This document shows, piece by piece, positions 2,561 to 10,276 of a DNA stretch of 64,000 bases; positions within the stretch are counted from its first letter, which is position 1, and each line of letters begins with the position of its first letter. The notes beneath the pieces were generated by a model, which was given only the letters and a program-made list of their open reading frames with translations, ran no database searches and was not told the origin of the DNA. The position numbers and the translations under genes are program-made. The stretch comes from Cerasicoccus sp. TK19100 (GTDB lineage Bacteria; Verrucomicrobiota; Verrucomicrobiia; Opitutales; Cerasicoccaceae), in the NCBI RefSeq assembly GCF_027257155.1, contig NZ_JAPWDU010000003.1, forward strand, positions 372,001 to 436,000, given 5' to 3'.

Positions 2561-3406
2561 CTAGTTCTTAGCATTCGTTTGCAGCTGCTTTAGGCGATCT
2601 TTGAGTTTTACCAATTCGTCTTCAATCCGAGTGACTGAACTTAATAGCTCAGCATCCTTTGAAGATAAGTCTGGCAGTGTCGACAGCTCCTGCATCGTCG
2701 ATACGATGATGCCGATGAATAAATTCAAAATGGTGAAGGTCGCGATGACGATGAACGGGACAAAGAATGCCCATGCCCACGGATAAACCTCCATCACCGG
2801 ACGCACAATTCCCATGGACCAGCTTTCCAGAGTCATGATCTGAAAGAGCGAGTAAAGGCTCTTACCCAATGATCCAAACCAGTCTGGAAAGGCGGTGCCA
2901 AACAGTGTGGTCGCGAGCACGGCGGTTACATAGAAGAATATCGCCATGACCAGAATAACGCCAGACAGTCCCGGGATCGCATGCAAAAAAGCTGCTACGA
3001 CTTTTCGCAATTGCGGGACCATAGTCATAAGGCGCAGCACACGCAAGATGCGCAGCGACCGCAAAATAGACCAAGGCCCTACATTTGGCACCAAAGCAAT
3101 CGCCACGACTGCAAAATCAAAGACGTTCCACCCACTGCGCCAGAAGTGTCGCCGGTAGGCGAAGAGCTTTATTCCCAATTCGACGGCGAAGACCAGCAGG
3201 CAGAGCTTATCGATTATTTTTAGAGTCCCGCCATATTGAGACCTCAGATCGGCGCTCGTCTCCAAGCCAAGGACAGCGGCATTGATCAGAATAACAGCAA
3301 TTATCAATACCTGAATAGGCTTGGATTCGACCCACTGCGCCAAGCGCAAACGCGTCACTGAGATATCGGGCTGCTGCCGCAGACGCACTAAATCATCTTC
3401 ACTCAT
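2561..3406 (-). CDS. Bacterial voltage-gated sodium channel (NaChBac/BacNav family)
   Basis: The 281 residues carry the complete single-subunit plan of a homotetrameric six-helix channel. S1 lies near residues 30-48, S2 near 64-83 and S3 near 94-107. The S4 voltage sensor has four arginines spaced by three (R116, R119, R122, R125). S5 is near 147-168, the selectivity filter TLESW is at 192-196, and S6 near 212-238. The TLESW filter is the sodium-selective signature of BacNav channels. The tail (about 248-275) is a charged heptad-like coiled coil, as in the family's tetramerising neck. It lies 23 bp downstream of the winged-helix gene in the same direction, so the two are probably co-transcribed, divergent from the Mrp Na+/H+ antiporter operon. 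Confidence 0.93.
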   Translation of the reverse strand: MSEDDLVRLRQQPDISVTRLRLAQWVESKPIQVLIIAVILINAAVLGLETSADLRSQYGGTLKIIDKLCLLVFAVELGIKLFAYRRHFWRSGWNVFDFAVVAIALVPNVGPWSILRSLRILRVLRLMTMVPQLRKVVAAFLHAIPGLSGVILVMAIFFYVTAVLATTLFGTAFPDWFGSLGKSLYSLFQIMTLESWSMGIVRPVMEVYPWAWAFFVPFIVIATFTILNLFIGIIVSTMQELSTLPDLSSKDAELLSSVTRIEDELVKLKDRLKQLQTNAKN

Positions 3407-3429: not shown

Positions 3430-3714
3430 TTACTCAGTCGCCACGACTTCGAGTAGATCGCCAATCGTGCGGTGGGACTCGAGTGGATGCCTCAGCGCAA
3501 TTTCAGGATGGATAACGTAGGTATTACGACGTCCGCATTTTTCTCGCTTGAGATAACCGCTCTGCTCCAAGTCGGAAACAATTCTTTGAACTGCCCGTTC
3601 GGTAATACCAACCTGGATGGCTACCTCTCGCAGCGACTGCTGCGAGTTACGTGCTAAACAGACCAAGACATGGGTGTGATTCGAAAAAAATGTCCAATTG
3701 GTTTCTGAATTCAT
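3430..3714 (-). CDS. Small winged-helix (MarR-like) transcriptional regulator
   Basis: At 94 residues this is little more than one winged helix-turn-helix. The HTH lies about residues 27-55 (REVAIQVGITERAVQRIV is the helix-turn-helix core), followed by a wing with basic residues (KREKCGRRNTYVI). Similar short MarR-like domains occur as stand-alone regulators. No effector domain is visible. An AAGG element sits 8-11 bases before the ATG. It begins a leftward unit with the sodium channel and is divergent from usp-mrpA-G. The two palindromes in the shared promoter region (3753-3766 and 3793-3806) are natural candidates for its operators, which is inference. Confidence 0.8.
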   Translation of the reverse strand: MNSETNWTFFSNHTHVLVCLARNSQQSLREVAIQVGITERAVQRIVSDLEQSGYLKREKCGRRNTYVIHPEIALRHPLESHRTIGDLLEVVATE

Positions 3715-3746
3715 GCTGCTACCTTGTTGAATTTTAGGCGCTTTTC

Positions 3747-3812
3747 AATTCACGAAAAATAATTCGCTAAAAAACTTGCGCAAGCCAAATTGCGAAATAT
3801 ATTTCGTGAATT
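3747..3812. promoter_or_regulatory. Twin palindromic operators in the divergent channel/antiporter promoter region
   Basis: A perfect 14-bp palindrome CGAAATATATTTCG (3793-3806) and a near-perfect copy CGAAAAATAATTCG (3753-3766) start exactly 40 bp apart, about four helical turns. Their outer flanks mirror each other: TTCA precedes the left copy and TGAA follows the right. An 8-bp palindrome TTGCGCAA (3776-3783) lies between them. The right site ends 6 bases before the usp ATG. A repressor bound there would block usp-mrp initiation and might also act on the leftward regulator/channel unit. Confidence 0.65.
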
Positions 3813-4718
3813 ATGAAACGCTACAAAAGAATCGTGATACCCTTATCGTTAACTTCTGGCAGCGAACTCATCGTGCAGTGGGCTGGGAAGGTCGCTCAAT
3901 TGGCGGGGTCGGAACAAGTCATTTTCGTCCACCCCATGGACATTGGAGATATTCCAGAGAAGGCCAAAGAGAAGTACCCCTGGCTCGCCGCCCCCTTGGG
4001 CGAGCAAGCCATCAACGAAATGAAAACTCTCGTGGAAGAGAGTTGGACCGGCCCAGAGAATACTCATGTGGGCTATCGCGCCATCGATCGCTCCAGCCAA
4101 GCCCTTGCCGTTCTAGAAGTCGTCGTCGAAACCGAGGCAGATCTGGTCATCGTCTCGCGGGAAAATTTCGGGCATGATTTGGCTATCCGCCTTGCTCGCA
4201 AAGCCCCTTGCTCCGTCATGGTAATCCCCAAAGACTGGCCCTGCCAACTGCGGAACATCCTTGTCTCAGTAGATTTTTCGAAACATTGCGCGCACGCAAT
4301 GGATATCGCGACCGCATTTGCCCAAGCAGAAGGGTTATCGTCAATCGAGAGTCTACACGTCTATGATGTTGGTCGCTCAGCTCACCGCGTTACGATTCCT
4401 CAGGAAGAGCTTTTGCGCACAACCCAGGAATATGCAGCGCAGCAACACCGTGAATTCGTGGACACCTTGGACACGAAAGGAATCACGGTCAATTGCCAGG
4501 AAGCCTGCAACCTGGTTGCTCCGCACGCCGTATGCTATGAAGCGCAGGAGTTAAACTGTGATCTCATTGTGGTTGGGTGTCGCGGCAAAGACACCGTGAC
4601 CGCTTTACTTCTTGGAAGTAATGCCGAGGACATGCTGCGGCTGTCGCCCGTGCCAGTAATTGCCGCCAAGGCAAAGGGCTCAGGTATGCAGCTTCTGGAA
4701 GCACTACTAGCCGAATAG
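3813..4718 (+). CDS. Tandem universal stress protein (two UspA domains)
   Basis: The 301 residues contain two Usp domains, about 1-145 and 148-290. The second keeps the ATP-binding signature G-x2-G-x9-G-S (GCRGKDTVTALLLGS); the first lacks it (IVSRENFGHD region), so probably only the second binds nucleotide. The mrpA start lies 4 bases after its stop, so it is the first gene of the antiporter operon. That placement suggests a role in sensing stress or energy state linked to Na+/pH homeostasis, which is inference. No clear Shine-Dalgarno sequence precedes the ATG; the palindromic operator occupies that place. Confidence 0.9.
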   Translation: MKRYKRIVIPLSLTSGSELIVQWAGKVAQLAGSEQVIFVHPMDIGDIPEKAKEKYPWLAAPLGEQAINEMKTLVEESWTGPENTHVGYRAIDRSSQALAVLEVVVETEADLVIVSRENFGHDLAIRLARKAPCSVMVIPKDWPCQLRNILVSVDFSKHCAHAMDIATAFAQAEGLSSIESLHVYDVGRSAHRVTIPQEELLRTTQEYAAQQHREFVDTLDTKGITVNCQEACNLVAPHAVCYEAQELNCDLIVVGCRGKDTVTALLLGSNAEDMLRLSPVPVIAAKAKGSGMQLLEALLAE

Positions 4719-4722
4719 CGAG

Positions 4723-7034
<2,312 letters not shown>

Positions 7035-7038
<4 letters not shown>

Positions 7039-7466
7039 CATCGACCCTGCTAATTATCGCCAGTCGTTACATCAGCCCGTTGCTCTTGGTTTTATCTTTC
7101 ATCGTGCTCTACCGCGGACACAACTTACCGGGTGGCGGTTTTATCGGCGGGCTGATTGCGGCCTCATCGGTGCTGCTGATGGCAATCGCCCAAGGTTGGG
7201 ACAAGACAGAGAGTCGTCTGCCTCTCCAGCCAATGACGCTCATGGCCATCGGACTCGCAATGGCCGGAGCCAGTGGATTCTTTGGCATGGCATATGGTGG
7301 TGCCTTCATGCAGGGAGTTTGGTTGCCATTCTTTGAGTTGCCTTTGCTTGGTAAGGTGAAGCTCGGCACACCGCTGCTTTTCGATATCGGTGTGTATCTC
7401 GTAGTGATCGGGTTCACACTCAAGTGCGCACATGCGCTCGCCACCGAAGAGGAGGAGGACGCCTGA
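7035..7466 (+). CDS. mrpB: Mrp/Mnh Na+/H+ antiporter subunit B
   Basis: The 143-residue polytopic protein matches MrpB: an early LYRGHNLPGGGFIGGL motif (residues 28-43) and four predicted membrane helices. MrpB is an essential small membrane subunit of the heteromeric antiporter. The start overlaps the mrpA stop (ATGA) and its own stop overlaps the mrpC start (TGATG), the tight coupling expected of mrp operons. It appears complete. Confidence 0.94.
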
Positions 7467-7819
7467 TGGACCTACTCATTTCCATACTGATCGGAGCGCT
7501 TTTCGCGGCGGGTATTTTCTGCCTCCTGCGCCGCAGCCTCATGAAGCTGATCATCGGCATCATTCTGTTGAGCCAAGCTGCAAACCTATTGGTCTTCGCC
7601 GCTGGAGGCCTCACTCCTGATCGACCAGCCTTTGCGCTCAGCGAGACCGAGCTTCCGCCCGCTGGCTATGCCGATCCATTGCCCCAAGCACTTGTGCTAA
7701 CAGCAATCGTCATCGGCTTTGGCCTGGTAGTCTTTGCCATTTCTCTGCTGCTCAAGGCTTATCGGGCCGTCGGCAGTGATGACGTCAACGCATTTAACGA
7801 AACGGACCGTATATCATGA
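7466..7819 (+). CDS. mrpC: Mrp/Mnh Na+/H+ antiporter subunit C
   Basis: A NuoK-like subunit of 117 residues with three membrane helices. The segment LIIGIILLSQAANLLVFAAG and the ADPLPQALVLTAIVIGF block are typical of MrpC/NuoK. The frame stays open upstream to 7424, but the ATG at 7466 fits best: it overlaps the mrpB stop by one base, follows a GGAGGAGG ribosome-binding sequence, and gives the normal family N-terminus (MDLLISILIG). Confidence 0.94.
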   Translation: MDLLISILIGALFAAGIFCLLRRSLMKLIIGIILLSQAANLLVFAAGGLTPDRPAFALSETELPPAGYADPLPQALVLTAIVIGFGLVVFAISLLLKAYRAVGSDDVNAFNETDRIS

Positions 7820-9327
7820 TTTGGCTTTTGGCATGCATTATCATTCCTGCGCTGAGCGCGCTGTTGTGCCTCTTGACCAGCCAGCGGACGGTCTGGAATC
7901 GCGGCATTGCAGTCGTCGGTGCCGGCGCGCTTTTAGCTGCATCGACCAAGCTCTTTACGGAAGTTTGGGACAATGGCTTTGTCACGTTTCAATCCGGCGG
8001 CTGGCCCTCGCCATTTGGGATTACTTTGATCGCTGATCTGTTCAGCGCATCGATGGTATTGATCACCGGCATCGTTGCCTTGGCAGTCGTTATATACTCC
8101 CTGCGTGATATCGAAGAACGCCTGATCCACTCTCATTACTACGCTCTGTTTCACTTGCTGATAACTGGCGTAAACGGGGCCTTCATTACGGGCGACTTAT
8201 TTAACCTCTACGTTTGGTTCGAGGTGATGCTGCTGGCTTCGTTTGTCTTAATAACCTTGGGCGGTAGTCGCGCCGAGCTGGAAGGCGGTGTCAAATACCT
8301 GATCATCAATCTGGTTAGCTCAATACTGTTCCTCTGCGGCGTCGGGTTGCTTTATGGCAAACTCGGCACGCTGAACATGGCTGACATTGCGGCAAGACTG
8401 GCGGGCTCAAATGACGCGTTTCTAATAAACTCCAGCGCGATGTTCCTGCTGGCAGCCTTCGGAGTGAAGGCGGCGTTGTTTCCCTTCTTCTTCTGGCTAC
8501 CCGCGAGCTATCACACGCCACGTGTGGCGATTTCGGCGCTCTTCGCCGGTCTACTGACCAAGGTTGGCGTCTATGCACTGATCCGCTCTTACACGTTGCT
8601 CTTTCACAGCCAATTTGAAGTAGTCCAGGGGATGCTCATCTTCTTGGCCGGAGCAACGATGGTTACCGGGGTTCTCGGGGCGGCCGCGCAATACGAAATT
8701 AGAAAAATTCTTTCATTCCACATCATCAGCCAGATTGGCTACATGGTGATGGGCCTGGCAATCGGCAGTGCGCTGGCGCTGACAGGAGCCATTTTCTACA
8801 CGCTGCACCACATCATCGTGAAGACGAATTTATTCTTACTCGGAGGCGTCATCATACGGCGTTGCGGAACCGCAAATCTAAAAGAAATTGGCGGCCTCTA
8901 TCGCTGGGCACCAGGGCTATCGCTGCTATTTTTCATCCCTGCATTCTCCTTGGGAGGTATTCCGCCGTTATCCGGTTTCTGGGCGAAGTTCAGCGTGATT
9001 AAAGCTGGCTTGGACGCCGAACTATACGTGCTGGTGACGGTTGCGTTACTAGTCGGCGTGCTGACGCTTTACTCCATGACGAAGATCTGGGCCGAAGCGT
9101 TCTGGAAAGACGCTCCGCAAGGCAATAAGCCGGAAAACCTTGGTCAAGCAGGATGGAGTCTAGTTACACCATGTGTCGCCCTTGCCGTCATGACGGTAAT
9201 CATCGGTCTGTGGAGTCAGCCGCTGTTTGCATTAGCTGAATCTGCCAGTGCTCAGCTCCTCGATCCGCAGGCCTATATCGACGAGGTCCTTAAACCGCAA
9301 ACAACCACCCACTATGGCCCAAATTAA
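7816..9327 (+). CDS. mrpD: Mrp/Mnh Na+/H+ antiporter subunit D
   Basis: The 503-residue subunit is related to NuoM/NuoN and carries the proton-antiporter core. Diagnostic blocks are FNLYVWFEVMLLASFVL near residues 130-147, the FFFWLPASYHTPRVAISALF region near 220-240 and IISQIGYMVMGLAIGSA near 305-320. It overlaps mrpC by 4 bp (ATGA at 7816). About 14 membrane segments are expected. With MrpA it forms the ion-conducting core in the inner membrane. Confidence 0.95.
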   Translation: MIWLLACIIIPALSALLCLLTSQRTVWNRGIAVVGAGALLAASTKLFTEVWDNGFVTFQSGGWPSPFGITLIADLFSASMVLITGIVALAVVIYSLRDIEERLIHSHYYALFHLLITGVNGAFITGDLFNLYVWFEVMLLASFVLITLGGSRAELEGGVKYLIINLVSSILFLCGVGLLYGKLGTLNMADIAARLAGSNDAFLINSSAMFLLAAFGVKAALFPFFFWLPASYHTPRVAISALFAGLLTKVGVYALIRSYTLLFHSQFEVVQGMLIFLAGATMVTGVLGAAAQYEIRKILSFHIISQIGYMVMGLAIGSALALTGAIFYTLHHIIVKTNLFLLGGVIIRRCGTANLKEIGGLYRWAPGLSLLFFIPAFSLGGIPPLSGFWAKFSVIKAGLDAELYVLVTVALLVGVLTLYSMTKIWAEAFWKDAPQGNKPENLGQAGWSLVTPCVALAVMTVIIGLWSQPLFALAESASAQLLDPQAYIDEVLKPQTTTHYGPN

Positions 9328-9646
9328 AAAGTTACTTTGCATTGCAGAGTTTGTGTTGGTGTACTTGCGAGAAGTCATCAAGAGCAACCTATCCGTAGCC
9401 ATGGACGTGCTCACCCCCTCGCATCGAATGAAACCGGCGAAGGTAGAGCTATTTGTTGGCGACCTGAGCGAGCGGCAACTTTTAGCCTACACAAATCTGA
9501 TTACAATGACACCAGGCACGCTAAGCTTAGATGTGTCGCCCGACCGCCAAAAGCTGCTCATCCACGCCATGTATGTGGACTCACCAGAGGCGGTAGTCCG
9601 CGAAATGGAAAGCACGTTGAAGGAAAGGATTGTTCATGTATTCTGA
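9314..9646 (+). CDS. mrpE: Mrp/Mnh Na+/H+ antiporter subunit E
   Basis: MrpE is a small membrane subunit of 110 residues: an N-terminal membrane-associated stretch (FVLVYLREVIKSNLSVAMDVL) and a cytosolic part with TNLITMTPGTLSLDVSPDR, the conserved MrpE core. The frame extends upstream to 9248, but the ATG at 9314 gives the normal family N-terminus and a 14-bp overlap with mrpD. No full Shine-Dalgarno sequence is evident, consistent with coupled translation. Confidence 0.93.
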   Translation: MAQIKKLLCIAEFVLVYLREVIKSNLSVAMDVLTPSHRMKPAKVELFVGDLSERQLLAYTNLITMTPGTLSLDVSPDRQKLLIHAMYVDSPEAVVREMESTLKERIVHVF

Positions 9647-9926
9647 ACTGCCCGTCATTCCTCTTTGGGTAATTGTCTTCGCGCAAACAACCGTAGGAGG
9701 TGCCATGCTCTTGACTCTTTGGCGCATTGCACGGGGACCCACGGTGATGGATCGCATTGTCGCGCTTGATCTGTTTGCTGCGCTCATCATGGCGCAGCTA
9801 GTCACGCTTGTTTTGACTAGTGGCTTTGTTTCTTACCTCAACGCCGCAGCGGCGATCGCGGTGATTAGCTTCATCGCTACAGTCGCGCTAGCTCGCTACT
9901 TGGAAACGCAGGAGGACGCATCGTGA
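9636..9926 (+). CDS. mrpF: Mrp/Mnh Na+/H+ antiporter subunit F
   Basis: A 96-residue, three-helix MrpF with the signature LWRIARGPTVMDRIVALDLFA at about residues 28-48 (given here as its key residues R-GP-DR-ALD). The ATG at 9636 is preferred over the TTG at 9630 because an AAGGAAAGG sequence lies 7 bases before it. It overlaps mrpE by 11 bp. MrpF is usually needed for antiporter assembly. Confidence 0.93.
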   Translation: MYSELPVIPLWVIVFAQTTVGGAMLLTLWRIARGPTVMDRIVALDLFAALIMAQLVTLVLTSGFVSYLNAAAAIAVISFIATVALARYLETQEDAS

Positions 9927-10276
9927 TGACCATTATCGCCAGCATGTTTCTGCTAGTTGGAGCAGCCTTTGCGTTCATCGCAGCACTTGGTGTGGTGCGA
10001 ATGCCAGACCTGTATTGCCGCACCCATGCGGCGACCAAAGCAGGTGCATTCGGTCTAAGTCTCATGTTGATTGGGATAGTCATCACCATGCCTGAGCTAC
10101 GCGTGTTCATCCAAGCGCTTATGATTATTGGTTTCTTCTATCTCACCGCACCGGTCGCCGCACACATGGTGGGACGAGTTGCTTTGCAACGCAAAGTTAA
10201 CTGGTGGCGCCGCGCGGATGCATATGAGCAGCCCAAACAAATTTCCCGTTCTGCAAAAGACGCTCAAAACAAATAG
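9923..10276 (+). CDS. mrpG: Mrp/Mnh Na+/H+ antiporter subunit G
   Basis: The last subunit of the operon, 117 residues with three membrane helices and the MrpG signature ALGVVRMPDLYCRTHAATKA (about residues 23-42). GTG at 9923 is 7-8 bases after GGAGG; ATG at 9926 is the alternative and would shorten it by one residue. It overlaps mrpF by 4 bp (GTGA). The hydrophilic tail after ~90 is lysine- and arginine-rich. The complete A-G set makes this a functional-looking antiporter locus. Confidence 0.93.
   Translation: MMTIIASMFLLVGAAFAFIAALGVVRMPDLYCRTHAATKAGAFGLSLMLIGIVITMPELRVFIQALMIIGFFYLTAPVAAHMVGRVALQRKVNWWRRADAYEQPKQISRSAKDAQNK

Follow-up and report, generated by a model that had tools for sequence, protein, structure and literature searches.

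Two similar palindromes lie between divergent operons in the genome of Cerasicoccus sp. TK19100. Which protein binds them, what does it control and does the distance between the two sites matter? We consider these questions for a stretch of 64,000 nucleotides, here called the window (assembly GCF_027257155.1, contig NZ_JAPWDU010000003.1, positions 372,001-436,000, forward strand). Comparative evidence makes it very probable that the palindromes serve as operators for the 94-residue winged-helix protein encoded beside them. We hold with good confidence the fuller reading that the dyad is an operator pair, one for each divergent operon, and that the bound protein most likely blocks both promoters until a signal is received.

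The gap of 98 bp at 3715-3812 separates two divergent transcription units (Table 1), and the preliminary description was right to place the palindromes between two operons. It had reported two similar palindromes 40 bp apart, one perfect over 14 bp, and the centres, at 3759.5 and 3799.5, are indeed exactly 40 bp apart; the right-hand palindrome is perfect and its partner pairs at five of seven positions. The mirrored outer flanks that it mentioned belong to a single 66-bp dyad, the 21-bp arms of which are inverted copies matching at 19 of 21 positions. None of 300 dinucleotide shuffles of the gap equals this match, the best reaching 16. Perfect 14-bp palindromes occur five times in the whole window, so a single one is not rare, and it is the pairing and the conservation that carry significance. 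A perfect 10-bp palindrome that the preliminary description did not include is centred on the dyad axis, at 3779.5.

In the leftward unit the regulator gene is followed by that of a voltage-gated sodium-channel-like protein, for which the best solved relative is 5hvx (E 6.5e-79) and the matches include NavAb constructs and 4bgn, a voltage-gated sodium channel. The rightward operon combines usp with Mrp genes. Mrp D scores above the NCBIfam curated cut-off, A and B are strong yet below theirs, and C, E, F and G would be assigned from the order and size of the open reading frames. Next after the channel gene, at 119-2473, is a gene for a 784-residue protein with a caspase-type domain (Peptidase_C14, with CHAT weaker).

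Table 1. Features of the divergent locus, in window coordinates
Feature	Position	Strand	Remarks
Voltage-gated sodium-channel-like protein	2561..3406	-	Downstream of the HTH gene; Pfam Ion_trans
94-residue winged-helix regulator, proposed binder	3430..3714	-	Pfam HTH_24/MarR
Operator 1 (putative)	3747..3767	-	Would serve the HTH/channel operon; palindrome CGAAAAATAATTCG at 3753-3766; 21.2 bits with the window-free motif
Operator 1 extension TTTCGTGAATT		-	Points to the HTH gene
Candidate -10 TATTTT	3756..3761	-	Inside operator 1; 16 bp after TTGCGC 3783-3778; read from sequence
Perfect 10-bp palindrome CTTGCGCAAG	3775..3784	.	On the dyad axis; TTGCGC on each strand
Operator 2 (putative)	3792..3812	+	Would serve the usp-mrp operon; palindrome CGAAATATATTTCG at 3793-3806; 30.1 bits with the window-free motif, best in the window
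Operator 2 extension TTTCGTGAATTA		+	Reaches into the usp start codon
Candidate -10 TATATT	3798..3803	+	Inside operator 2; 16 bp after TTGCGC 3776-3781; read from sequence
CG of third half-site	3819..3820	+	14 bp past operator 2; mirror at 3739-3740 on the minus strand
Universal stress protein (usp)	3813..4718	+	First gene of the rightward operon; Usp, two stretches
Mrp-type Na+/H+ antiporter genes	4723..10276	+	A 4723-7038, B 7035-7466, D 7816-9327

Orthologues of the 94-residue protein were taken from named genomes (26 loci, 24 used, with the distant L047 and the fragment L048 dropped), from the same order, where 47 of 372 genomes including that of Cerasicoccus sp. TK19100 carry the protein and all 47 other places were taken in, and from the same class, where it occurs in 26 further genomes and 20 were used, the six weakest-scoring being left out. 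Weak matches within the Cerasicoccus genome itself (L002, L003, L006-L009) were left aside, and two loci with too little upstream DNA (L104 and L114) were excluded. The protein was absent from all nine other genus and family members at E ≤ 1e-10. Expectation-maximisation on the upstream regions of 69 relatives, with the window excluded, produced a 24-base motif of consensus ATACGAAATAAATTTCGTGAATTA with a log-likelihood of 575, where three shuffled sets gave 174-182. The learned motif is the palindrome of the window plus an extension, TTCGTGnWTTA. When this window-free motif was scanned over the window, the best place was 3790-3813 on the plus strand, followed by 3746-3769 on the minus strand (scores in Table 1), and the best place overlapping neither site reached only 10.9 bits.

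Of 89 relatives, 79 carry the palindromic core, at 9 bits or above, within 450 bp upstream of the regulator gene, with 6.45 in shuffles, and it also stands upstream in 15 of 20 held-out loci on which the model was never trained, with 1.36 in shuffles; both sets include close kin and are not independent samples. The palindrome is therefore conserved in orthologous gaps, the comparison by which the preliminary description had proposed to judge it. The core is missing at 9 bits from ten of the 89 relatives, including L027, L030 and L076, which lack it despite 57-63% identity to the window protein and count against the operator reading. The survey of plasmid relatives covered four of 44 plasmid records. 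On GC-rich plasmids of Deinococcus, Nocardia and Arthrobacter a site of 11.8-18.4 bits precedes the regulator gene. In Rhodococcus opacus pR1CP1 (L249) the only strong site, at about 1958, is 1.5 kb upstream of the regulator and before a CBS-domain gene; its 14-bp core, on a GC-rich plasmid, is identical to the perfect palindrome of the window.

Alignment of 51 non-redundant sites confirms the extension as an asymmetric element beside the core and reveals a weaker third half-site 14 bp further on, where 65% of the sites have C at +19 and 41% have G at +20. Both window sites have CG at these two positions, and at several loci there are overlapping palindromes with an offset of 14 bp. The 14-bp repeat of half-sites and palindromes suggests that dimers may bind side by side, and cooperation between neighbouring dimers within one site is possible. 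Arrays of overlapping palindromes in steps of 14 bp (or 28 bp) were seen before the regulator gene at L073, L084, L112, L150 and other loci.

How might such sites work? One dimer of the 94-residue protein would bind each palindrome, operator 1 being centred 45 bp before the regulator and sodium-channel operon and operator 2 13 bp before the usp-mrp operon. The bound dimers would shut both divergent promoters, combining autorepression, by which the regulator would limit its own level, with repression of the transporter operon, and a signal that frees the sites would allow the Na+ channel, the stress protein and the Mrp antiporter to be made together. We infer that the protein acts locally as a repressor of itself and of a block of Na+ transport genes, that it represses rather than activates and that the signal has to do with Na+, pH or inorganic carbon; the exact promoter positions are likewise putative. 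TTGCGC within CTTGCGCAAG, read on either strand, is a possible weak -35 element shared by the two operons, and a candidate -10 element follows within each operator. This symmetric TTGCGC/TATATT promoter is hypothetical and gains no support from a strict sigma-70 scan of 3650-3900, which returned zero sites; as no consensus promoter was found in the gap, repression by promoter overlap is a proposal only.

The same protein could bind both palindromes as an activator, or repress one promoter and activate the other, an arrangement that we consider unlikely. In its favour are the position of the site relative to the aligned protein start, which varies among relatives from about 20 to 410 bp upstream, and the TTTAC extension at metK-linked loci, which resembles a -35 element and may place the site just upstream of a promoter. 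However, the centre of operator 2 is 13 bp from the usp ATG, where activation is hardly workable, and single-domain MarR/ArsR-type proteins are mostly repressors. Repression of both operons is the reading that we retain.

The preliminary description took 40 bp as four helical turns, which would set two dimers on the same face of the DNA and let them form a loop or cooperate. At 10.5 bp per turn the distance amounts to 3.8 turns, leaving the sites about 70 degrees off. A functional role for the spacing itself, in a dimer pair on one face or a small loop, is improbable. The sites are exactly 40 bp apart and mirrored, and spacings of 40 and 41 bp recur at L074 and L107, but at L074 both sites have the same orientation and paired sites among the relatives are separated by 28, 37, 40, 41, 51, 82, 92, 101, 130 or 144 bp with no common helical phase. 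Looping by helical phase as a conserved feature was rejected for this reason. At 52 loci with a divergent neighbouring open reading frame, window included, a single site (32 loci) is commoner than two (15), three (one) or none (four). The relative G036, with the closest full-length usp found in the order (45% identity), has one site 14 bp ahead of usp and another 46 bp ahead of the HTH gene, against 13 bp and 45 bp in the window, and these sites are 51 bp apart rather than 40. Site-to-gene distances were used here in place of an alignment of four usp-HTH gaps, which was too gappy. The distances are kept and the spacing is not, which indicates that each site follows its own gene; on this comparison the 40-bp spacing is what the length of the gap leaves.

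Many regulators bind palindromic AT-rich sites, and these could be the targets of a different regulator, perhaps a global one, whose presence merely coincides with that of the gene for the 94-residue protein. We judge this very unlikely, in the first place from the distribution of sites in the Cerasicoccus genome. A second sequence model was built from 46 of 61 sites, 15 having been left out by hand, again with the window excluded. With 150 of 674 first-look candidates scored, it gave five matches at E ≤ 10 in the 5.07-Mb genome, four of which are the two window sites on both strands, and the top three all lie at the window dyad. Operator 2 is the best site in the genome at 23.7 bits; operator 1 (3743-3768, minus strand) scores 15.2 bits. 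A search for the 19-bp pattern with up to two mismatches found no further copy in this genome. On the pattern search and the model scans, with the same share of candidates scored, the operators are confined to the intergenic region of the regulator itself, and strong sites at one locus only are a poor fit to a global regulator. The fifth, marginal match (13.8 bits; C2:684106-684125, L159) is near a small open reading frame with a PEP-CTERM-like end and probably due to chance.

Comparison across genomes bears on the same issue. At E ≤ 0.02 the second model matched none of 27 chosen genomes where no copy of the protein was found and 19 of 46 genomes with the protein, most of the 19 being donors of training sites; 27 of the 46 gave no match. 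The gene sbtA, which a search found in 58 of the 344 genomes from the order, allows a direct contrast (68 places, ten incomplete pieces dropped, 58 copies tested). The core, at 9 bits, stands upstream of 11 of 18 copies with the regulator in the genome, against 2 of 40 copies from genomes in which no regulator was found (Fisher p 8e-6), with 1.4 and 1.7 expected from shuffles, and both exceptions among the 40 lie at a distance of more than 340 bp. Where the protein was not found, the motif thus occurs before sbtA at chance level only, which speaks against another binder. With five regulator-adjacent copies removed (the HTH-intergenic L202, L205, L207 and L225, and L231, which precedes an sbtA with the regulator as its next gene) the figures are 6 of 13 and 2 of 40 (p 0.0016). 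Of the full 18 copies accompanied by the protein, seven lack an upstream core.

Strong sbtA sites in G251 and G312 are on a contig other than that of the regulator. Additional matches to the second model precede a biotin carboxylase gene on another contig of G036 and Proton_antipo_M genes on another contig of G088 and about 1 kb from the regulator gene of G666; matches also precede genes without obvious link, for dehydrogenases (G071) and a TIM-barrel protein (G235). The neighbours of these extra matches were scanned in part (ten proteins). A usp comparison, limited to seven genomes, found a site in five, all with the regulator next to or near usp, and none before usp in G312, with the regulator on another contig, or in G308, where the regulator was not found. 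We regard the pairing of motif and protein, the restriction to this locus and the assignment of one site to each gene as strongly supported by these sequence comparisons. The suggestion made at the outset, that the palindromes are regulator sites with the 94-residue HTH protein as likely binder, gains from the window-free motif and its conservation. An origin as a chance palindrome, a mobile-repeat remnant or an RNA hairpin or terminator deserves hardly any credence, for although five perfect palindromes in the window and two terminator-like stems in 3650-3900 (0.2 expected) would suit it, no shuffle reproduced the inverted repeat, the 19-bp pattern has no other copy in the genome, a terminator would have little purpose between divergent genes and conservation in held-out relatives contradicts all of these readings.

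The neighbours of the regulator gene in other genomes offer some guidance on its signal. The nearest upstream gene at 84 loci encodes Sbt_1 (11), Proton_antipo_M (9), Usp (6), isocitrate dehydrogenase (5), PEP carboxylase (3), carbonic anhydrase (2) or Na_H_antiport_1 (1). Downstream, at 90 loci, it is metK (21), Sbt_1 (3), P-II (2), PEPcase_2 (1) or Na_H_antiport_1 (1). Other families or none account for the remaining 47 upstream and 62 downstream neighbours. In one representative of a 15-member cluster DabA was confirmed beside a Proton_antipo_M gene, which is on that account taken as DabB-like. On one contig of G036 the order is regulator, usp-mrp and, further along, sbtA, which is preceded by a site, so that the window block looks like the G036 cluster minus sbtA. 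A search of the Cerasicoccus genome for sbtA found none, and the bicarbonate reading is thus not directly applicable here. In G242 a broken sbtA-like copy (contig 5, 36829-37494) lies about 6 kb from the regulator-usp-mrp block.

These neighbours point to inorganic carbon and to the Na+ gradient that drives its uptake, with which metK in 21 relatives fits poorly. To our knowledge, little is known of how bacteria other than cyanobacteria sense inorganic carbon and regulate their response. We advance only tentatively the wider proposal of a phylum-spanning regulator family that would sense inorganic-carbon (or coupled Na+/pH) status outside cyanobacteria through the operator WTACGAAAnnnWTTTCGTGnWTTA. 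Its targets would be genes for the supply and use of bicarbonate (sbtA, sbtB-like P-II, dabAB, carbonic anhydrase, PEP carboxylase and biotin carboxylase) and, for the Na+ cycle, Mrp and sodium channels, and the window would represent a reduced regulon.

The device itself, a small winged-helix protein with palindromic operators between divergent operons, is ordinary. Titles and the opening parts of abstracts among the top-listed open-licence papers contain no description of the protein, the motif or the bicarbonate link, which may be in print elsewhere, and the exact strings TTTCGTGAATTA and GITERAVQRI have no match in that literature. The protein-site pair recurs in metagenome-assembled genomes and in isolates; their labels are Planctomycetota, Armatimonadetes, Gammaproteobacteria, Deinococcota and Actinomycetota. 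Sequence alone suffices to trace this one protein-operator pair across phyla, in many members of which the neighbours are bicarbonate pumps or bicarbonate-using enzymes, and a defined protein with a defined DNA site is now available for testing inorganic-carbon regulation outside cyanobacteria.

The alignment of 67 regulator sequences has six invariant positions. Gly36, Thr38 and Arg40 (within GITERAVQR) occur at the start of the DNA-recognition helix, and Gly61, Asn64 and Tyr66 in the wing. Near-invariant residues outside the recognition helix are Asn12, His13, His15, Leu74-Arg75-His76 and Glu79, of which the three histidines 13, 15 and 76 are a candidate ligand or metal site; the cysteines, 19 and 60, are outside the near-invariant positions. 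The AF2 model (mean pLDDT 89) is a monomer with helices 12-22, 28-35 and 39-51, two strands and one C-terminal helix, 84-91. In the metK-linked relatives L079, L098, L103 and L115 a C-terminal tail carries WT(V/I)GEHGSE, absent from the window protein, which is perhaps a separate effector or docking element.

Assignment to known families gives a mixed picture. The Pfam MarR model (PF01047) scores 26.4 bits against a cut-off of 24.6 and HTH_24 is higher, 30.1 against 21.9; no NCBIfam model reaches its cut-off, and the list of Pfam families at E 0.001 has no ArsR model. Structural comparison of the monomer model places CzrA, SmtB and SqrR level with MarR-type chains (Z 9-10), and a profile search matches SmtB and AdcR. 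As with MarR and ArsR/SmtB repressors, the fold is a winged helix and the gene is beside a palindromic operator in a divergent gap. MarR proteins, of about 140 residues, flank the winged helix with dimerisation helices at both termini. The present protein differs from both families in having 94 residues only, near-invariant residues of its own outside the recognition helix and the motif CGAA-N6-TTCG with a half-site repeated at 14 bp.

The best Foldseek match (E 5.7e-4) is AspA of the archaeal plasmid pNOB8, also a small winged-helix DNA-binding protein, with a near full-length profile match (residues 3-91) at only 19% identity. AspA spreads on DNA and belongs to a partition cassette with partner proteins. 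It is a plasmid centromere-binding protein, whereas the scanned neighbours here (channel, Usp, Mrp and caspase-domain protein) include no partition genes.

A resemblance to SahR/SamR arises from the 21 of 90 relatives encoded just upstream of metK; the gene after metK in 19 of these 21 is one that we take, on reading the sequence, to be ahcY. There are no SAM-cycle genes at the window locus, with its usp-mrp and channel genes, and many neighbours of other relatives are transporters. SahR, an ArsR-type protein, controls SAM-cycle genes, and the common SahR/SamR consensus is ATC-10 nt-GAT according to PMC4239095, unlike the CGAA-N6-TTCG of the present operator.

CcmR/NdhR, which regulates bicarbonate uptake in cyanobacteria, has Mrp-like targets too and a LysR fold with its own effector domain. 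The protein described here is unrelated to that LysR-type regulator, yet its proposed targets are comparable with those of CcmR/NdhR, which include genes for bicarbonate transport.
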